Source: a virus. From it: a stretch of 21,384 bases of DNA. Positions 1 to 18,434 of this stretch are shown here, piece by piece (the stretch's first letter is position 1; each line of letters opens with the position of its first letter). Made by a program: the position numbers and the translations under genes. The stretch covers positions 1 through 21,384 of IMG/VR virus record IMGVR_UViG_3300031658_000167, one strand, 5' to 3'. Below the pieces are notes generated by a model. That model had not been told where the DNA came from. It ran no database searches and worked only from the letters and a program-made list of their open reading frames with translations.

Positions 1-49
1 CAGTACCATCTGGAGTTGTTAATGTATCTATCTTTAAAGTAGAAGCCAT
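1..49 (-). CDS. Tail fibre-type protein, N-terminal fragment (runs off window)
   Basis: Only the first 16 codons lie in the window. The reading begins MASTLKIDTLTTPDG, an opening seen in many phage tail-fibre or virion structural proteins, especially in marine phage genomes. A GAGG ribosome-binding site sits five bases before the ATG. It follows the 171-aa fibre gene by a few bases in the same direction, so it continues the fibre cassette. The function is inferred from the N-terminus and neighbours only. Confidence 0.6.
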   Translation of the reverse strand, partial: MASTLKIDTLTTPDGT

Positions 50-2326: not shown

Positions 2327-3532
2327 TTATAATGCGACAGACATCGCAATAGCGAAGCCGTTAGTAGCACCAGTTGGTGCTTGGAATGTGGGCGAAGACC
2401 CTGCTCCCAAACTAGTTAATACGTGCCCTGAAGAACCTTTAGATACTGGAATGTTACTTAAGTCTACATCTGAGTCAGCCATTGTAACAGTACGAGTAGT
2501 ACTAGTAGCTACACCGCTGACTTGGAAGGCTAACTCTTTAGTGTTATCCCCATCATCTTGGATCCTGAATACATCGTCTTGTACGTCAGTTACTGCTCCT
2601 GATACAAGTCCAGTTATTTGTGTCTGGATGTTTGAGGTAGCACCGTTTAGGTAACTAAACTCTGTATTACTTATGCTTCCATCATGTATCTTAGTGGCAT
2701 CAATAGCAGCACTAGCATTAATATCTGCATTGAGAATAGTTCCATCAAGAATATTAGTAGAGGTAACACCACCTGTCGAAATATCTCCAGTAAGAATTGT
2801 TGCATCCAGTATCTTACCAGTAGTTATAGCCCCGTCAGCAATGTCCCCCACGAGGATAGTACCGTCAAGTATGTTAGTAGATGTAACACCACCTGTTGAT
2901 ATATCACCAGTAAGAATTGTTCCGTCCAGTATCTTACCAGTAGTGATAGCCCCGTCAGCAATGTCATCAACGAGAATAGTACCGTCTAGTATCTCAGTTG
3001 TAGTCACAGCTCCTGCAGCTATAGATATAACACCAGCAGAACTAATGGTAGCATCACCAGAAGCAGCCACATTGGTAAATACCGTACCTGTTCCTATTAA
3101 TAGATGAGCACTAGTTGTAGCCAATGCGTCATCAATAAAGCTAACCTTTGGTGCAGTCACAGCATCATCAATGATGTCAGCTGTATCAACGGCAAGTGAG
3201 GAAATGGTTAGTACACCAGTATTAGATAGCGTCCCATCACCAGACATGATTACGTTGCTGAAGGTCGTTCCGTTACCAACCATGATGTGCGTGTCGGTAG
3301 CAACTATAGAGTCATCAATGAAATCAATCTTTGGTGCGGTCACATTATCATCAAGTATGCGAACTGTCGTTACCCAATCATTAGCTTCAATCGTGTCAAG
3401 TCTGCCATCATTCGTGTTGGCTCCACTTAGTAACTGGTCAAGCTCCGCATCAACCTTGGTAGCACTAATAGCTACTGGAGGTGTGGCATCTCTGTCAGTT
3501 TCAAAATCATGTATTCTAGTTAACGTTGCCAT
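2327..3532 (-). CDS. Tail fibre protein with internal repeats
   Basis: 401 aa. Residues 1-60 (MATLTRIHDFETDRDATPPV...) look like a head or attachment domain. Residues 61-181 hold two tandem units of about 61 residues, each starting with a DDxVTAPK motif (61-68 and 122-129) and containing a GNGTTFSNV or GTGTVFTNV core. Residues 181-265 hold more than four 20-residue repeats of the type ILDGTILxxDIxxGxxT, probably a beta-helical or trimeric shaft. The C-terminal part has DDGDNTKELAFQVSGV and TTRTVTMADSD, a segment widespread in phage tail fibres. An AGGGG site lies upstream of the ATG. I infer a trimeric fibre shaft. Confidence 0.8.
   Translation of the reverse strand: MATLTRIHDFETDRDATPPVAISATKVDAELDQLLSGANTNDGRLDTIEANDWVTTVRILDDNVTAPKIDFIDDSIVATDTHIMVGNGTTFSNVIMSGDGTLSNTGVLTISSLAVDTADIIDDAVTAPKVSFIDDALATTSAHLLIGTGTVFTNVAASGDATISSAGVISIAAGAVTTTEILDGTILVDDIADGAITTGKILDGTILTGDISTGGVTSTNILDGTILVGDIADGAITTGKILDATILTGDISTGGVTSTNILDGTILNADINASAAIDATKIHDGSISNTEFSYLNGATSNIQTQITGLVSGAVTDVQDDVFRIQDDGDNTKELAFQVSGVATSTTRTVTMADSDVDLSNIPVSKGSSGHVLTSLGAGSSPTFQAPTGATNGFAIAMSVAL
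2753..2992 (-). repeat. 120-bp tandem DNA repeat encoding fibre shaft repeats
   Basis: Two consecutive 120-bp units are visible by eye. For example, the plus-strand string GTAACACCACCTGT recurs exactly 120 bases later, and GCCCCGTCAGCAATGTC also recurs. Each unit codes for two 20-residue shaft repeats. Similarity at DNA level, not only protein level, points to recent duplication or gene conversion. Such repeats allow the fibre to lengthen or shorten by unequal recombination. Confidence 0.85.
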
Positions 3533-12016: not shown

Positions 12017-12400
12017 TCATCTACTCCCTTTAGTAATACCAACCTGCTTAACATTGTAAACCTTTTCAGCTCTATCCACCTGAGCCTTATTCTTAGCCCT
12101 ACGTGGAGCTTCTTTTTTAGTAGCTTCAATAGCCACTTTTATGCGTGTACGAAGCCTTGCATCACTCCTCTCACGCTCTCTTTGTTTGGATAGAAGCGCA
12201 GATGGGGGTGGCTTCGTGTTCTCCTTGTACTGTTTATTCATAGAATCCTGCTGGCCCTTGCGTTCTATCTCTACGTTTCTCTCTTTTGTTGCCTTAATCT
12301 GTTTAGCGGTTGGAGGTTTTGACGTTCTTCCGCCACCGAATCTATTAGGGTTTAAAGCAAAGTCTCCGCCTCCCGGCCCTACCATACGTTTTTTTGTCAT
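12017..12400 (-). CDS. Basic, low-complexity protein, 127 aa
   Basis: Begins MTKKRMVGPGGGDFALNPNR, then FGGGRTSKPPTAKQIKATKE, with a central RERERSDARLRTRIKVAIEA helix and a basic end. Gly/Pro-rich at the front and Arg/Lys-rich at the back, without cysteines or an obvious enzyme core. Its ATG shares one base with the portal stop (TAATG), so it is translated in coupling with the portal. I suspect a head-associated or DNA-binding protein, but nothing identifies it. The open frame on the other strand here is a shadow. Confidence 0.6.
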   Translation of the reverse strand: MTKKRMVGPGGGDFALNPNRFGGGRTSKPPTAKQIKATKERNVEIERKGQQDSMNKQYKENTKPPPSALLSKQRERERSDARLRTRIKVAIEATKKEAPRRAKNKAQVDRAEKVYNVKQVGITKGSR

Positions 12401-14709
12401 TAAACTACTGGCCCCTGTTGAGGTGGTAATGGCTGCCCTTGTGGTTGTTTGTTGCCACCCAAGCTACCTAATATTTGCTGTATCACTGGCCCTGCTTGAG
12501 CCAAGAGTGCTTGTATGTCTAGCCCACCAGCTGGTGCTTCACCCTGTTGAGCCGGAGCTTGCGGTTGCTGTGGTGCTTGAGATGCTGGATCACCTCCTTG
12601 CGGTTGTGGCGGGGGAATCAAGCCAGACTGTACAGCTAGCTCATTCACCTGTTGATATAGTACCTTGAGTATTTCAGGGTTCTCCTGTGCCATACGCATT
12701 ACAGCTTCGTTGACTGGGACAGCCACCTCATCTGCCATCTTAGATCCAGACTTCCTCATGAATTCTTTAATGAGGGGAGATACATTCACGAATTGAGGGC
12801 CAGCTCTCAGAGCGAGTTCCAACTGTTGTTGAATCTCGTTGAGTCTGCTCAACCTGTTAGAATTTACTGAATTCGCTGATAAGTCTATATCATATTGACC
12901 CTGTATCTCTTTAGCTGTGACAGCTCTTAAAGAAGTCTCAGCCCCCTCCACTACTCTGAAAAACATTTCCTCGTCACCAAACTGCTGTAACAATTGAAAC
13001 GTTTGTAATACTGCTTCATTAAATCCTAGGGCTACATTACGCAACATCATCTCTAGTCGTTGATTACCTTCGTTGACTATAGCGTTAACTCCTGTAGCAG
13101 TTTTGTTTTGGATTGCAGTGGCATCGTTTCCTATAGCAAAATCAGAGACACCAATTCTATCTTGTATGAGTCTTCGTACTAGTTCTTCTTCTCTGAAGCT
13201 GGAGAACTTAACATCACCAGTTTGTAATATCCCAATCTGATTTGGGCCAGCAGGGAATCCAACACCGGGGCCGGGACGATGAATCTCTGGATCTACGTCA
13301 GAGTTAGGATCGTACCAGAACATCGTGGCGTTAGTGATAGTTCCATTATCAATACGCATATTGTGTATGTCATTGATCTCCTGTTGCAAGTCTGTGATTA
13401 TCTCCGCAACACCCTGACTCTCAAATCTACCGGGAATAGGGAAAATACGAATCTCTGCAAAAGGTTTCTTGCCATGTAACAAGTCTGATTCTCTCGCTGA
13501 TAACAATACTTTATGCTTCTTGGAGAACGTGGCTACGATGTCTTCCATCCTGCCATCACCATCAATGTCATACCTACCATGGAACTCAATCAACTCTAAT
13601 TCAGCATAACCATCATCAGGCTCCATTGAATCTTGTTCGTAGCCTTCCTCTAACGTCTGAACATCTTTCAGTAATGATTCCCCATGGGCAGAGATACCGT
13701 CAGTATCGTTATCATTACTACCAACGTTTAACATTTCAACGTTGTCGTATGTGCCAGCGTCACCTAACTTCAATAAGGTATCGTAATCTCTGCGGAATCT
13801 ATGTGCTACGTATGGGGAGTCTGCTACTGTGATTGCTCTGGGATGGTAGATGAAGTCTTCGATTGGGATGAACTCCCAGTCAGGATTGTTGTATACTACT
13901 TCTTCTCTTTCTATCTTAATGAATGGTTTCTTAACCCAATCATTGTTCTCTAATATAAAAGACATCTGATCAAGGAACTCAAGGATTGCCGCGCTAACCT
14001 GACCAGTCTGTACCTGAGCCTGTGCAATTGCCACTTCATCCTGCACCTGCTGTTGGTTTAACCTGCGGGTGTACTTACGAACATCCTTGCGCCACATAAT
14101 CTTTACTGTGCCACGTCCGTAGATAAAGGCTTCACGGATCCAGTCCTGAGCCTTCGCGTATACTTGTACACGCTTTTGGAGAACGAAGTCCAACATGTTC
14201 TCTACATCATGTGCCTTATCGACATCCTTAATCTTACGGGGGGCATCGTTCCCCCCGTCGGGTGGTGCAGTTTGTTTCCCTGCTCCGCTCACCCCTCTAG
14301 CCGTAACTAACGGCTGTACTCCGAATATTGGGTTAATCATCCTACTCACCAGTGTATCTACTATGATACCAGTGATAGGAATGTGTAGGTTAGAACAACC
14401 CTTCCATGGGAAGTCTTTCTCTGTGACTACACCTTTATACTGCTTATACCATCTCTCTAGATTATTCTGCCAATCTTGTCTGGCATCCACAGAGTTCTGT
14501 ACTGACTGACAGAGGAAGTCTAATAGCTTAGCCTGCCCCTCTTCCTTTAATCTTGGGTCAATCGCTGGCTCTACTGTAGAGTTCTTCGGCTTATTAATAA
14601 CGTCACCACTAGCCAGCTTCTTAGGTGCTTGGGCTTGGCTCGTGACATCCTTGGCCTCGTGTGACGGAGACCCTGCCGATAGTTGGTTTGGACTTAGCTC
14701 TTCTGCCAT
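12400..14709 (-). CDS. Portal protein (P22-like podovirus portal)
   Basis: 769 aa, within the size range of podovirus portals. After a disordered N-terminus, the segment DFPWKGCSNLHIPITGIIVD and SRMINPIFG (99-130) is the characteristic portal start. A helical clip/wing region follows (VENMLDFVLQKRVQVYAKAQ, EAFIYGRGTVKIMW). ELIEFHGRYDIDGDGRMEDI and NDIHNMRIDNGTI are stem-region signatures. The last 70-75 residues are Gln/Pro/Gly-rich and low complexity (PPPQPQGGD, QQPQAPAQQ). The portal is the dodecameric DNA entry channel at one capsid vertex. A GGAG site precedes ATG by six bases. The terminase genes usually next to it are absent here, replaced upstream by a terminator-like hairpin and small genes. 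Confidence 0.88.
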   Translation of the reverse strand: MAEELSPNQLSAGSPSHEAKDVTSQAQAPKKLASGDVINKPKNSTVEPAIDPRLKEEGQAKLLDFLCQSVQNSVDARQDWQNNLERWYKQYKGVVTEKDFPWKGCSNLHIPITGIIVDTLVSRMINPIFGVQPLVTARGVSGAGKQTAPPDGGNDAPRKIKDVDKAHDVENMLDFVLQKRVQVYAKAQDWIREAFIYGRGTVKIMWRKDVRKYTRRLNQQQVQDEVAIAQAQVQTGQVSAAILEFLDQMSFILENNDWVKKPFIKIEREEVVYNNPDWEFIPIEDFIYHPRAITVADSPYVAHRFRRDYDTLLKLGDAGTYDNVEMLNVGSNDNDTDGISAHGESLLKDVQTLEEGYEQDSMEPDDGYAELELIEFHGRYDIDGDGRMEDIVATFSKKHKVLLSARESDLLHGKKPFAEIRIFPIPGRFESQGVAEIITDLQQEINDIHNMRIDNGTITNATMFWYDPNSDVDPEIHRPGPGVGFPAGPNQIGILQTGDVKFSSFREEELVRRLIQDRIGVSDFAIGNDATAIQNKTATGVNAIVNEGNQRLEMMLRNVALGFNEAVLQTFQLLQQFGDEEMFFRVVEGAETSLRAVTAKEIQGQYDIDLSANSVNSNRLSRLNEIQQQLELALRAGPQFVNVSPLIKEFMRKSGSKMADEVAVPVNEAVMRMAQENPEILKVLYQQVNELAVQSGLIPPPQPQGGDPASQAPQQPQAPAQQGEAPAGGLDIQALLAQAGPVIQQILGSLGGNKQPQGQPLPPQQGPVV

Positions 14710-14983: not shown

Positions 14984-14996
14984 AATTGTAGTGTTA

Positions 14997-15035
14997 CTAT
15001 ATAAGATGCAAAGGATTCAAAAAGGATTCATTTAT
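14997..15035 (-). repeat. 39-bp two-part repeat, copy A (candidate phage promoter or regulator site)
   Basis: Minus-strand reading: ATAAATGAATCCTTTTT, a 7-base variable middle, then TTGCATCTTATATAG. The copy at 17986-18024 is identical over the 17-base part and 13 of 15 over the second part, with the same 7-base gap and no indels. Both copies lie just before a minus-strand ORF. This copy overlaps the stop codon of the 101-aa gene. Within it TGAATCCTTT occurs twice. Confidence 0.7.
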
Positions 15036-15333
15036 CCAGAGGATTCTTCGGTGTTTTATCTTCTGTACAAGAATAACATATAAGACTAGCACTTACCATC
15101 ATTCCTTTCGGAACTTTGATGCGTTCTCCTACTACTTTACCGGGGGGTGGATCACGATGCATAATGAAGACGTAGGCCTTAGAGTTCATTCCATCATACC
15201 ATCCCATGAATTCTGTCGTAGGCGGGTCATTAAGGAAGTCCTCAGTATCGTTGTCAGTCCAATCATTACGTATCATAGTGTCATCCCAGACTACGTAATA
15301 AGGCTTACCCTTCTTTAGTTTAGGTGATTTCAT
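15028..15333 (-). CDS. Unknown phage protein, 101 aa
   Basis: Begins MKSPKLKKGKPYYVVWDDTM and includes NDTEDFLNDPPTTEFMGWYD, YVFIMHRDPPPGKVVGERIK and an end with ICYSCTEDKTPKNP. There is one CxxC pair (CYSC) but no second pair. It looks like a small beta-rich soluble protein with alternating strands (AYVFIMHRD, ASLICYSC). Its last codons and stop are part of the 39-bp repeat copy A. No convincing ribosome-binding site is visible upstream, and no family is recognised. Confidence 0.6.
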   Translation of the reverse strand: MKSPKLKKGKPYYVVWDDTMIRNDWTDNDTEDFLNDPPTTEFMGWYDGMNSKAYVFIMHRDPPPGKVVGERIKVPKGMMVSASLICYSCTEDKTPKNPLDK

Positions 15334-15423
15334 GACATTGAAAACGGAAAGTTACTACCCTGTGGATGGGTACGTCCTTCAATAATAAAATCCCATACAA
15401 CATAGAAGTATGGCTGCCCTATC

Positions 15424-16008
15424 CTATGTACAACTCTTTTGATTTTTATATTGATTGGCCTTCTTACACTGCTCATAGAACTCCTCCTGACTTAGATTCC
15501 ACTTTGCTGCATTAGCCCACTTAGTCACCCACTGGACATTACTAATATCTTCCTTTAGTTCGGGGAACTTACTGGCAGGCTTGATGTGGTCAAGAGACAT
15601 ATTATCGGTAGGAGTCAAGTGGTCTCCTGTAAGGGCACACTTGTATTGCTGTTTCTCCGCTAACCTCATTAAGTCATCAGCAAAATCACTAGAGCCTAAC
15701 CTATTTATAGCAGCATTTTTAAAAAAATGTGATTCACATAAACGACCATTCTTGAATGAAGCATTCTTACAGCCGTAAGAGTTACACAAGCCCTTCTTCT
15801 TAGCATTCATAGAGTAATGCTTGTATCGCTTCTTATCATTTAATGATACACAGTCCTTACATACATATTGTAGCTTGTCTGCAGTACTTGAGTGCTTGTG
15901 GAAATCAACTACGTCCACCATCGTCTTACAAGTCGAACAAAATTTTTCTGTATATTTGTAACTACGCGTTGCTTCGAGTGGTATCTCCATAACCATATCA
16001 TAATCCAA
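15424..16008 (-). CDS. HNH endonuclease with N-terminal zinc-binding cysteines
   Basis: 194 aa. Cysteine pairs C24/C27 and C50/C53 form a zinc ribbon; C75, C80 and C91 with H94 could form a second. The C-terminal nuclease core starts at C124 (YKCALTG) and has the hallmark LDHIKP with D140 and H141, then N157 in ISNVQWV, and WANAAKWNLS. This layout is that of free-standing phage HNH nucleases. It interrupts the order of small late genes and is probably mobile (homing-type) or a packaging-associated nuclease; the former is likelier because terminase is not adjacent. The start is unclear: the longest reading uses TTG; ATG at 15996 or 15990 would shorten it by four or six residues. Confidence 0.82.
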   Translation of the reverse strand: MDYDMVMEIPLEATRSYKYTEKFCSTCKTMVDVVDFHKHSSTADKLQYVCKDCVSLNDKKRYKHYSMNAKKKGLCNSYGCKNASFKNGRLCESHFFKNAAINRLGSSDFADDLMRLAEKQQYKCALTGDHLTPTDNMSLDHIKPASKFPELKEDISNVQWVTKWANAAKWNLSQEEFYEQCKKANQYKNQKSCT

Positions 16009-16026
16009 GCTTCATACTTGAGTCTT

Positions 16027-16215
16027 CTAATTAAGGTCTTCACCGTTAGTATCGGGGAACTTAAAAGCAATCTCTTGAAGAGCATCTGACGTATCCCTTA
16101 ATGATACTGCTATGTCACCATGGATCTTCTCCAAAGCAACAACGGTAGCTAATGAGTCCTTTTGGACGTTTAACAGATTGGTTAAGATTTGTAGCAGAAT
16201 TTCCTCGTTCTGCAT
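16027..16215 (-). CDS. Small helical protein, 62 aa (start revised)
   Basis: From the ATG at 16215 the protein reads MQNEEILLQILTNLLNVQKD, then SLATVVALEKIHGDIAVSLR, ending FPDTNGEDLN. It is strongly helical with heptad-like leucines, so may be a coiled-coil oligomer. The same frame stays open to a GTG at 16356 (109 aa), but that extension overlaps the 57-aa gene by about 130 bases and is Asn/Phe/Thr-rich and less protein-like. The 57-aa stop lies eight bases before this ATG, which favours the short form. Function unknown. Confidence 0.5.
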   Translation of the reverse strand: MQNEEILLQILTNLLNVQKDSLATVVALEKIHGDIAVSLRDTSDALQEIAFKFPDTNGEDLN

Positions 16216-16222
16216 AACAATC

Positions 16223-16396
16223 TTAAAACGAGGTGTCTGCGTCGTAGTAGGCATCTGCAACTTCGGGAAAGTACTGTTCCACAAATTGGAGAAGAACGAC
16301 CCTTGCTTCAAATTGGGATTGTTCAATTTCGATTGCTCCATCGTTTCTTCTTTCACAGATTCCCTCTAATTGTTTAACTGTTTGTTTTCTGTTCAT
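16223..16396 (-). CDS. Small protein, 57 aa (hypothetical)
   Basis: Starts MNRKQTVKQLEGICERRNDG and ends EQYFPEVADAYYDADTSF. It is acidic at the C-terminus and amphipathic in the middle (AIEIEQSQFEARVVLLQFVE). The ATG overlaps the kinase gene's end by 23 bases and has an AAGG motif six bases upstream, a better start than the longer in-frame ATG inside the kinase. The alternative is that the overlapping 109-aa frame is the real gene; codon-like composition and spacing favour this one. No family recognised. Confidence 0.5.
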   Translation of the reverse strand: MNRKQTVKQLEGICERRNDGAIEIEQSQFEARVVLLQFVEQYFPEVADAYYDADTSF

Positions 16397-16973
16397 AAAA
16401 AGCCTTAACATGGTGGTCGTGCATATGAGGTTCTTCCACCTGTTCTACAAACCCAAAGTGTTCACCTATCAACTTAGACAACTTAAGCTTTGTTCCGTAG
16501 TTTCTAAATGTGTAGTCTGGTCTGATATGCTCAATGTCTAATTCAGATGAATGCTCACTGAATATCTTACTCTTACGTTCTATTAACCATATCTCACCAC
16601 CTAACTCTCTGATCTTATTGGCCTCGTTGTGGAAGCGTACATCCTCAACACTAATTGGGGACGAATAAACTTCTACCCTTCTATGCCATGAATCAACCCA
16701 TATGTCTTGATCCATTGTATCACGACCCCACTCAGTACCAAGCTTCTGCATAGCATAACGTGGTGTACGGCCTCCGAAGATCATATTCGGCACTTCCTTA
16801 AGCCTACCCTCTATCATCTCATCTGTTACACCGGGGATACATAACATCATATCCTTAAGCGTCTGGCTAAACTTACTTCTCTTATAGCCATACTCAACAT
16901 GTAAGATGTCTGCTACTGTAGACTTTCCTGTTCCCATTCGTCCCATTAGGCCGATTATTTTGGGTTTACTCAT
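16374..16973 (-). CDS. Deoxynucleoside monophosphate kinase, T4 gp1-like
   Basis: 199 aa. The P-loop IGLMGRMGTGKSTVADIL (7-24, with K17 and S18) is followed by YGYKRSKFSQTLKDMM, the substrate-side helix of the T4 gene 1 family. Further signatures are GGRTPRYAMQKLGTEWGRD (68-86), VEDVRFHNEANKIRELGGEI (the 'DvRFpNE' motif binding nucleotide), and DIEHIRPDYTFRNYGT near the end. It phosphorylates dNMPs to dNDPs with ATP in the cytoplasm, supplying precursors for phage DNA synthesis. It overlaps the upstream 62-aa gene by eight bases. Length is near the family norm. Location at the head of the virion block, rather than with replication genes, is slightly unusual. Confidence 0.87.
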   Translation of the reverse strand: MSKPKIIGLMGRMGTGKSTVADILHVEYGYKRSKFSQTLKDMMLCIPGVTDEMIEGRLKEVPNMIFGGRTPRYAMQKLGTEWGRDTMDQDIWVDSWHRRVEVYSSPISVEDVRFHNEANKIRELGGEIWLIERKSKIFSEHSSELDIEHIRPDYTFRNYGTKLKLSKLIGEHFGFVEQVEEPHMHDHHVKAFYEQKTNS

Positions 16974-17154
16974 CTGAAGCCTCCATCAACTCTACAGTCG
17001 CTAGATCTTCTGGTACCTCTATGCAGGTGACATAACTCTTGCCAAGATGCTTATAGCTAGTTCTAACATACCATGTCCTACCATCTTGACACTTAAAGAT
17101 ACTGTTTGGGTGTACTGTTTCCCCTGCTCCAGTTAACATATAGAAGTTATCCAT
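16966..17154 (-). CDS. Small protein, 62 aa; first gene of the leftward block
   Basis: MDNFYMLTGAGETVHPNSIF, then KCQDGRTWYVRTSYKHLGKS and YVTCIEVPEDLATVELMEAS. It reads as a small beta-barrel-like protein (YVRTSYK, SYVTCIEV). An AGAGG and a GGAAG site lie before the ATG. Its end overlaps the kinase start by eight bases. It is the first ORF after the candidate promoter at 17190-17218. Function unknown. Confidence 0.6.
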   Translation of the reverse strand: MDNFYMLTGAGETVHPNSIFKCQDGRTWYVRTSYKHLGKSYVTCIEVPEDLATVELMEASDE

Positions 17155-17189
17155 GAATCTTCCAGTGACCTCTTGTTATTAATACGTTT

Positions 17190-17218
17190 AGGCTAGCATA
17201 GTTATCTTATAATGTCAA
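17190..17218 (-). promoter_or_regulatory. Candidate sigma70 promoter for the leftward virion block
   Basis: Minus strand: a perfect -35 TTGACA (17218-17213), 17-base spacer, and -10-like TAGCCT (17195-17190) preceded by TGC, i.e. an extended -10. The -10 hexamer matches consensus only at the first, second and last positions. The predicted transcript starts about 30 bases before the 62-aa gene. A host-type promoter here would give early or constitutive leftward transcription. Confidence 0.55.
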
Positions 17219-17249
17219 CGATAGAATCAAAAGATGGTTGGTAAGGAAA

Positions 17250-17289
17250 GGAAAAGAAAAATATATATTATTAATGGGCGTTAGCCCAT
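17250..17289 (-). terminator. Weak terminator-like hairpin
   Basis: The arms ATGGGC / GCCCAT (17289-17284 and 17279-17274) are a perfect 6-bp stem with a four-base loop. On the minus strand they are followed by an AT-rich run ending in TTTTTCTTTT. It would close transcripts from the Nfu unit before the next promoter 30 bases on. The T-rich tract begins about 10 bases after the stem, so efficiency is doubtful. Confidence 0.4.
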
Positions 17290-17302
17290 ACGAGCGTAGC
17301 GA

Positions 17303-17314
17303 GTGAACGTTCAC
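17303..17314. promoter_or_regulatory. Perfect 12-bp palindrome, possible operator
   Basis: GTGAACGTTCAC is a perfect inverted repeat with no spacer, about 85 bases upstream of the candidate leftward promoter. It is flanked by GAGCGTAGCGAGTG. It could be a dimeric repressor or activator site. No second copy was noticed in the window. Confidence 0.35.
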
Positions 17315-17351
17315 TTGTTTTGAGCACACGTATCCTATATAGCGGGTTTAT

Positions 17352-17507
17352 AAAAAAAAAGAAGAGCAACTCCCATCCCCCGAAGGACTAAGTCTGCAGG
17401 CTAGTTGGCTTTTAACCGATACGCAGTTTGGTATAGGCAACTAGATACTCACCCCCACCATAGCCTAGGTAAGCTAAAGTGGTGGGTATACCTACTCCTA
17501 GTGAGTA
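17352..17507 (-). ncRNA. Candidate structured RNA / cis-regulatory element
   Basis: No ORF lies here, but the stretch is dense in inverted repeats. There are 7-bp arms TACTCAC (17446-17452) and GTGAGTA (17501-17507). Nested inside are 7-bp arms CCCACCA (17454-17460) and TGGTGGG (17480-17486), with an inner TAGC/GCTA. The apical loop TAGGTA (17466-17471) can pair with TACCTA (17489-17494), giving a pseudoknot. A separate 7-bp stem CTAGTTG (17401-17407) / CAACTAG (17438-17444) lies beside it. On the minus strand the region ends in a run of nine T (17360-17352), so the minus strand is the likelier transcript, arriving from the Nfu unit. It is not a tRNA: no T-loop motif is seen. It could be a phage small RNA, an attenuator or an antitermination site. 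Confidence 0.5.
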
Positions 17508-17543
17508 AGCTTAAAATAATACTATATTAAAAATTTAAAGATG

Positions 17544-17804
17544 TCAACTGTTTATGGGGCGATATGCGTTAGTGGGGATTACTATGATGTCTGGATGCAC
17601 TTGATTCCTCAATGCCTTCTCAATTCCCCTTAGTGTACCACCAGCACTGGACGGACAACTACCACACGCCCCCTGAAATGATACCACTACTTCATCACCT
17701 TTAACTAAATCTAACTCTATGTTGCCACCGTCAGACATAAGGTATGGCCTTATAGATGCCTCAATCACCTTCTCTATTGCTTCATACTTCTCAGCGTCAT
17801 TCAT
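17544..17804 (-). CDS. Nfu / NifU C-terminal-domain protein (Fe-S cluster carrier)
   Basis: 86 aa, essentially one Nfu domain. Hallmarks in order are an N-terminal helix (IEKVIEASIRPYLMSDGG), the DGGNIEL strand (25-31), and VVVSFQGACGSCPSS with cluster-binding C47 and C50. TLRGIEKALRNQVHP follows. Nfu proteins bind a 4Fe-4S (or 2Fe-2S) cluster at the dimer interface through this CxxC and pass it to target enzymes. The protein lacks the A-type N-terminal domain of NfuA and is complete as a stand-alone domain. It is coupled through a four-base ATGA overlap to the upstream four-cysteine mini-protein. In a phage it counts as a putative auxiliary metabolic gene; its client is unknown. Confidence 0.9.
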   Translation of the reverse strand: MNDAEKYEAIEKVIEASIRPYLMSDGGNIELDLVKGDEVVVSFQGACGSCPSSAGGTLRGIEKALRNQVHPDIIVIPTNAYRPINS

Positions 17805-17974
17805 TTGAATACAGTCATTACAACTTTACTGTTCTCCATTGATCTCTCATATGCAGTCTTTACATCGCAGTCACCACATACCCGATGAGCACCATTCTCA
17901 ATCAAGTAATCTGCCATTACAAACATCTCACCGCATAAGACACACTTAACTTCAGTCATACTCATTTCGTCCAT
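17801..17974 (-). CDS. Four-cysteine mini-protein (zinc ribbon or Fe-S/rubredoxin-like), 57 aa
   Basis: From the ATG at 17974 it reads MDEMSMTEVKCVLCGEMFVM. C11/C14 (CVLC) and C33/C36 (CGDC) are 18 residues apart, enough to hold one metal. The frame extends upstream to an ATG at 18004, but that ATG sits inside the 39-bp repeat. The ATG at 17974 has AAGGGG four bases before it, so I take it as the start. The end overlaps the Nfu gene by four bases. The pairing with an Fe-S carrier makes a metal-site role plausible; a zinc-ribbon transcription or nucleic-acid protein is the main alternative. No named family recognised. Confidence 0.72.
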   Translation of the reverse strand: MDEMSMTEVKCVLCGEMFVMADYLIENGAHRVCGDCDVKTAYERSMENSKVVMTVFK

Positions 17975-17978
17975 AATT

Positions 17979-17984
17979 CCCCTT
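17979..17984 (-). promoter_or_regulatory. Ribosome-binding site deciding the start of the four-cysteine gene
   Basis: AAGGGG on the minus strand, four bases before the ATG at 17974. There is no equivalent before the upstream in-frame ATG at 18004. Confidence 0.65.
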
Positions 17985-17985
17985 T

Positions 17986-18024
17986 CTACATTAGATGCAA
18001 GCATATAAAAAAGGATTCATTTAT
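17986..18024 (-). repeat. 39-bp two-part repeat, copy B (candidate phage promoter or regulator site)
   Basis: Minus-strand reading: ATAAATGAATCCTTTTT, 7 variable bases, then TTGCATCTAATGTAG. It ends one base before the AAGGGG site of the four-cysteine gene. If the repeat is a promoter with start near its GTAG end, the leader would be about 10-15 bases and begin at the ribosome-binding site. See copy A at 14997-15035. Confidence 0.72.
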
Positions 18025-18434
18025 TATGCATATTTAACATTAAAATATATTAATCTTAGTAGTGTGTATCTATGTGGGCTAGGAGTATACAAACAAAGGT
18101 GTATGATAAAGTATACAGTTACGGTGATATTGTATATAAAAGTGCTAACTTGTTGCAGACTTGGGTGCTTAGCGGTTTTGCTGTTATGAAAAGTGCAAAA
18201 TAAATAGACGAGACAACCCATATTAATATCAATGAATTTCAATCAATGGGACTCCTAGTCGGGGGTAGGGGGCTATGCAAGCCCCTTGACACCCCTATTC
18301 TAGGGCTATTCAGGGGCGTTGTGACATCTTTGTGATATTATCCTTTAGAATCATATACTTAGCTAGTGGTTGCATCAGGGTATGAAGGGGGGGATACTTA
18401 CATCCCCCTCAAACTCTTATACGAGGTTCCAATC
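18025..18434. promoter_or_regulatory. Divergent control region between leftward and rightward genes
   Basis: No credible gene is present. The left half (18025-18240) is AT-rich and holds only weak promoter-like strings. The right half has three closely packed palindromes: GACTCCTAGTC near 18251-18261, GGGGCT/AGCCCC (18269-18274, 18280-18285) and CCCTA/TAGGG (18293-18297, 18301-18305). A TTGACA (18286-18291) lies between the last two, without a good -10 at normal spacing. TAGAAT (18346-18351) is a possible -10. A hairpin GGGGGAT/ATCCCCC (18389-18395, 18402-18408) lies in the leader of the first rightward gene. The packing suggests repressor operators or a replication/control locus; individual promoter calls are low confidence. 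Confidence 0.45.

Follow-up and report, generated by a model that had tools for sequence, protein, structure and literature searches.

Two copies of a bipartite sequence on the minus strand of the window (the whole 21.4-kb virus record analysed here) are probably promoters of one class, TGAATCCTTTT-N9-TGCATCTWAT, which would be read by the host core RNA polymerase together with an ECF-type alternative sigma factor. From the sequence we infer the promoter activity, the ECF identity of the factor, the timing of transcription and starts near 14996 and 17985. Defined in this way by sequence only, the motif would represent a late-promoter class, with exact predicted starts, for a group of uncultured podophages.

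The window comes from a podophage, of which it is a fragment, and encodes a portal and a major capsid protein of the SU10 type. Its structural genes are encoded on the minus strand and its early genes on the plus strand, with the divergence near 18.3 kb. Close relatives are lacking among annotated phages, where the nearest portal is about 24% identical and the nearest capsid protein, from a Pelagibacter phage, 41%. Relatives of the window are present as many fragments in IMG/VR.

Sequence and position of the two copies

A perfect block of 17 bases, ATAAATGAATCCTTTTT, is found on the minus strand at 15035-15019 and 18024-18008. In both copies it is followed by seven unlike bases and, without any indel, by a second block, TTGCATCT-n-AT-n-TAG (written TTGCATCTnATnTAG), so that the earlier note, which had described two 39-bp copies built in exactly this way, was correct to the base. 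The copies (Table 1) are identical in 31 of 39 positions, and the best pair of 39-mers in 60 dinucleotide-model sequences of the window's length had at most 29 identities. Because an exact 17-base repeat occurs in about four of the 60 model sequences, the pair alone is moderately unlikely and therefore suggestive. A position weight matrix built from 19 sites, including copies A and B themselves, gives 48.8 bits for copy A and 32.9 bits for copy B, the maximum in 500 kb of null sequence being 6.3.

The final 8 bases of an ORF (15028-15333) lie within copy A. Copy B is intergenic, as had been noted, provided that the four-cysteine gene starts at the ATG at 17974; the mechanical ORF from 18004 would overlap it. 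The small ORFs of 45 aa and with four cysteines do follow the two copies directly on the minus strand, and no sigma70 pair accounts for either copy: the sole pair touching copy A matches in 9 of 12 positions and is not conserved.

Table 1. Positions of the two copies, their elements and the genes and promoter discussed in the text.
Feature	Position	Strand	Remarks
Copy A	14997..15035	minus	internal candidate promoter before 45-aa gene and portal; sequence, weight matrix, 11 other lineages
Copy A, -35-like GAATCCTTTT	15029-15020	minus	
Copy A, -10-like TGCATCTTAT	15010-15001	minus	predicted start near 14996
Copy B	17986..18024	minus	candidate promoter, head of late operon; sequence, weight matrix, relatives
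Copy B, -35-like GAATCCTTTT	18018-18009	minus	
Copy B, -10-like TGCATCTAAT	17999-17990	minus	predicted start near 17985
Four-cysteine protein, 57 aa	17801..17974	minus	directly downstream of copy B; AAAGGGG before ATG
NifU-like domain protein	17544..17804	minus	second gene behind copy B; Pfam PF01106, E 3.1e-22
Sigma70-type promoter TTGACA-17-TAGTAT	17519..17547	minus	contrasting class; equivalents in relatives
dNMP kinase	16374..16973	minus	unit behind copy B; PHROG 139, E 1.6e-39; Pfam DNMK
Conserved small protein, 45 aa	14846..14983	minus	directly downstream of copy A
Portal	12400..14709	minus	first large late gene behind copy A; Pfam SU10_portal, E 2.6e-60

Conservation in related phages

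Relatives of the window place the conserved elements at TGAATCCTTTT and TGCATCTWAT, separated by nine bases and followed by a weak 3' tail; this refined motif differs slightly from the block borders of 17, 7 and 15 bases drawn in the earlier note. Some dozen lineages supplied 19 sites for an alignment, collected with a degenerate pattern and by protein-based fetching; its consensus is wAATTATGAATCCTTTT-N9-TGCATCTWATATAGTA, with two almost invariant cores and a random spacer. For copy A, compared across 12 lineages, mean pairwise identity is 0.98 and 0.90 for the elements, against 0.46 for the spacer and 0.40-0.41 for the flanking bases, a contrast partly shaped by the search pattern, and copy B is conserved in a similar manner. 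Because a pattern search fixes part of the conservation in advance, the short core GAATCC-N16..18-TCTWA was also counted in 490 kb of contigs retrieved by protein similarity only. It occurs 15 times (1.7 expected, maximum of 4 in 20 shuffles), and all 15 occurrences are full motifs with TTTT preceding the spacer.

The expectation of further copies and of copies in related phages was borne out, the relatives having two per lineage. The window, L005, L028, L031, L032, L033 and L035 each have two copies and no more, spaced by 2.4 to 3.0 kb and running in the direction of the late genes: one heads the late operon, and the other stands immediately before the conserved gene of 45-46 aa which precedes the portal gene. 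Copy A is found at the matching place in 11 other lineages; copy B has counterparts in L005, L028, L031, L032, L033 and L035 and, with one additional spacer base, in L050, where both copies are at the usual places with the same extra base and the first block of copy A is weaker. In L014 the 45-aa gene is lost and the retained motif now stands before the portal gene. A third copy is found in two contigs that continue the right end of the window and belong to very close kin, L102 and L104; it lies on the opposite strand, 179 nt before the gene of a YqaJ recombinase. Counted along the motif, the start codon of the 45-aa gene falls on position 46 for the window and the majority of its kin, but on 32-33 in L028, L031, L032 and L033.

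All eight lineages which bear the motif and have both regions sequenced possess both copies. In L010, L011, L016 and L109 both late copies are missing, and the available sequence covers both places. These four form one clade of the portal tree (92/89), with motif-bearing lineages on either side under midpoint rooting. The copies are thus kept or lost (or gained) jointly, which is what one shared trans-acting factor predicts. The clade keeps the genes, and at the motif's place L010, L011 and L016 have a TTGACA sequence; a replacement repeat pair was sought in all four lineages and not found.

Probable promoter class

A sigma70 pair TTGACA-16..18-TATAAT common to the 19 sites was not found, and placing the -35 of such a promoter within the T-run was tried and given up. 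Good TTGACA-17 promoters are present nearby, before a structured RNA (see below) and the dNMP kinase gene, and this coexistence suggests that the motif is a second promoter class. Where the start codon is at position 32-33 no room is left for a sigma70 -10 downstream, which makes TCTWAT the natural -10, presupposing that the 45-aa genes are read from the motif site.

ECF sigma factors consist of sigma2 and sigma4 only, and transcription from their promoters starts 5-9 nt after the -10, with which the observed start codon positions are compatible. The GAA core of ECF -35 elements is found in GAATCC, which is invariant in the 19 sites; this is partly fixed by the pattern, and the protein-fetched contigs agree. 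TCTWAT is a -10 of the TCT/GTC type at ECF spacing, with an offset of 23 from the G as in four of the five listed ECF26 promoters of Sinorhizobium (S.) meliloti. Two features speak against the ECF reading: the -35 is GAATCC and not the common GAAC, and its stretch of ten invariant bases is rather long for such an element.

In S. meliloti, ECF promoters of the form GAAT-N19-TCTAAT and GAAT-N19-TCTTAT have been mapped by 5'-RACE or RNA-seq (PMC6180224). These ECF26 promoters (RpoE1/RpoE4; PMC6180224) resemble the phage motif in having two blocks, a GAAT core in the -35, TCTAAT/TCTTAT as -10 and an identical 23-base offset, and they start about 33 nt from the G; the likeness rests on few published sequences, and recognition by an ECF sigma is not thereby proven. 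They differ in that the phage -35 extends invariantly to GAATCCTTTT, that the phage -10 has TGCA before TCT where ECF26 has CGT or GT, and that an ECF sigma gene was not identified in the phage contigs. The promoter of S. meliloti RpoE8 (ECF29), GGGAACATTT...GGCATCCAATA (PMC6180224), shares a GGCATC-type -10 and a GAAC-T-rich -35, but its offset is one base shorter and it has C for T in ATCC and GAAC instead of GAAT. The start of SMc04049, which both 5'-RACE and RNA-seq place 33 nt beyond the G (PMC6180224), serves as yardstick: by it, the window should have its starts near 14996 and 17985, and four relatives (L028, L031, L032, L033) would make leaderless transcripts.

Among phages, phiEco32 and 7-11, whose late genes follow the same logic, encode their own sigma factors and use alternative-sigma promoters (PMC8948821). 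The middle and late promoters of phiEco32 (tAATGTAtA, sigma phi32_gp36; PMC8948821) stand upstream of the corresponding units, one class serving the late cluster and middle genes, and according to the literature its capsid and portal belong to the SU10 group, all as seen or proposed for the window phage. However, they consist of a single element without a -35, whereas the motif described here has two, of which the upstream one is the most conserved part; TAATGTA (TAATGTAGA) is present in copy B only and absent from copy A and most relatives. The late promoters of 7-11 (GTAAtg-16-aCTA, sigma gp47; PMC8948821) are, like the motif, bipartite with a gap of about 16-17 bases, few in the genome and linked to late genes, but the consensus of the 19 sites differs from them in both elements. 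Judged by sequence, the motif is thus similar to phiEco32-like late promoters in its presumed working, lacks the defining sequence of the phiEco32 and 7-11 types, and matches ECF promoters in form.

Candidates for the recognizing factor

The window together with contigs of close kin (L102/L104/L106 and L113/L143, the latter two very close kin from other samples) covers about 51 kb, as estimated from overlaps, with a small gap at the tail fibres. In these contigs neither region 2 nor region 4 of Sigma70 was matched at E<=1, and phmmer searches with phi32_gp36 and gp47 of 7-11 gave no hit worth the name, so that a gp36 homologue was not found; nor was PHROG 1740, the family of the phage sigmas, matched in 18 records, whose contigs are incomplete. 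As positive controls, the Pfam region 2 profile detects gp36 at 0.002 and gp47 at 6e-6, and PHROG 1740 matches both strongly, hence a sigma of the phiEco32 type should have been seen. A single-subunit RNA polymerase (PF00940, RNA_pol) was not matched in the phage contigs either, which weighs little as the control set held no positive. Of the bipartite phage-specific promoter proposed in the earlier note, the promoter is therefore strengthened by the further copies and the relatives, while its phage specificity, and with it the phage sigma factor, activator or polymerase that the note called for, is one possibility, no sigma-like gene having been found in the 51 kb. Given the ECF geometry and that neither a phage sigma nor a phage polymerase was found, a host ECF sigma is equally possible; what remains as candidates are such a host factor, a strongly diverged factor of the phage itself, and an activator.

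In bacteria, the 37-bit pattern has nine matches in 257 Gb, with a rough chance expectation of about four. Four of the nine precede homologous TolC/RND genes, with no ECF gene beside them. Because of the near-chance count and the lack of an adjacent ECF gene we regard these matches as weak support only.

The four matches before a TolC/RND efflux operon, in bacterial MAGs (L077 5647, L081 7735, L083 7254, L084 4442), share TGAATCCTTTTT-N9-ACATCTAATAAACACGGAGG with diverged spacers, a bacterial promoter-like element with the form of the motif. A sigma gene in the record of L034 was set aside, as this record has no SU10 capsid gene. The viral matches L019-L024, L026, L027, L029, L030, L034 and L036 lie outside the phage group and were discarded as chance or coding matches, and a literature search for TGAATCC and sigma factor led only to a cloning primer.

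Alternative explanations

The conserved blocks could instead be the site of a phage activator which, like MotA of T4 or CII of lambda, recruits the host holoenzyme with the primary sigma. We consider this unlikely, even though the failure to find a sigma gene in the contigs covered, the AT-rich sequence after the second block and the many small early proteins of unknown function would fit it. No consistent TATAAT -10 follows downstream (the T(-7) position is a T in 6 of 19 sites), in four lineages the start codon occupies the place of such a -10 or its start, and the second block itself has the form and the spacing of a -10. More improbable still is a site unrelated to initiation, i.e. an operator or a recombination, packaging or nicking site. 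What has been shown is conservation of DNA only, and a tyrosine recombinase is encoded in contigs of close kin; however, the motif has no evident dyad symmetry and is always just upstream of, and co-directional with, a gene, and the joint loss in a clade which keeps the genes, with TTGACA at the same place in three of its lineages, also speaks for initiation.

The initiation end of T7-type promoters is resembled by ATATAG and ATGTAG, the 3' ends of the motif, which would suit a promoter of a phage-encoded single-subunit polymerase. We find this hardly credible, because the ATAG end is not conserved across the relatives, two blocks with a random 9-base spacer are unlike a contiguous T7-type promoter, and the covered contigs hold no unassigned non-structural ORF of polymerase size, to which the missing RNA_pol match adds its small weight. 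Least probable of all is chance or a recent duplication without function: the frequency of 17-base repeats in the shuffled sequences would allow it, but the pair stands at the same places in lineages with portal proteins 62-83% identical and with diverged spacers, and this conservation already refutes it.

Proposed regulation of the late genes

With the ECF-type promoter as the preferred reading, ordinary sigma70 promoters would serve the early genes and the structured RNA nearby. The appearance or release of an alternative factor would then redirect the polymerase to the three sites, which would set middle and late timing: copy B would start the late operon, copy A would restart it at the portal gene, and the third copy, on the other strand, would start the YqaJ/SSB replication-recombination genes. 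If the sigma is that of the host, the phage would tie its lytic programme to the host's stress regulon; if the factor is the phage's own, it would be a sigma or regulator so diverged that current models miss it. A more far-reaching version, possible but in our view rather doubtful, is that the phage has no sigma of its own, that its middle and late promoters mimic a host ECF regulon and so couple lytic timing to the release of a stress sigma, that the sister clade gave up this coupling by losing both late sites at once, and that leaderless mRNA is made in those relatives whose start codon coincides with the predicted start. The clade with the joint loss may serve as a natural control for finding the factor.

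Structured RNA and other features of the region

The stretch from copy B to the dNMP kinase gene also contains a structured RNA, about 142 nt long and with 41-55 pairs among its members. In six relatives 23 of 55 pairs have compensatory changes, a number reached by none of 500 shuffles. Rfam has no match to it even at E 1, and it is apparently a new structured family in this phage group. With a covariance model the RNA is recovered in the window (17488-17366, minus; 34.9 bits), whose species has a shortened form, and in the loci of fifteen relatives, including ones without the promoter motif (e.g. L028 7443-7584 -, L032 4020-4161 +, L109 4716-4881 +, L011 697-837 +, L014 524-665 +, L050 1238-1378 +). 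In several members the RNA has its own sigma70 promoter.

The genes behind copy B vary: in L028, L031, L032 and L035 the RNA follows directly, and in the window (17544-17974, minus) and L013 the NifU-like and four-cysteine genes do. Relatives of the four-cysteine protein are present in L013 and L014. The gene of 45-46 aa is found in 10 other lineages, and its product is weakly DUF2292-like (E 0.0023, below cut-off). In the divergent region (window 18205-18251, minus) there is a further conserved block, GGAGTCCCAT...ATATGGGTTGTCTgGGAGAAATTTTTT, which lies upstream of the RNA in L028, L031, L032, L035, L016 and L109, hence also in lineages without the promoter motif, and may represent a terminator, origin or attachment site.

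The large terminase subunit of close kin seems to be split (L106 318-1037 and 2504-3379, minus), by eye into an N-terminal-like and a C-terminal-like ORF with small genes between them, a layout also seen in L143, L144 and L146. A 44-bp match of 86% identity (window 15300-15343, L106 2348-2391) links the beginning of the ORF that precedes copy A with the gap between the terminase pieces; small paralogues of a K..G.PYYVVWD protein were noted here. The tyrosine recombinase gene lies among the replication genes of close kin (L104 7185-8336), and a temperate phage or one that resolves dimers is therefore possible. The strongest repeats of the window are tandem units of 60/120 bp in a tail-fibre-like ORF (2732-3031).
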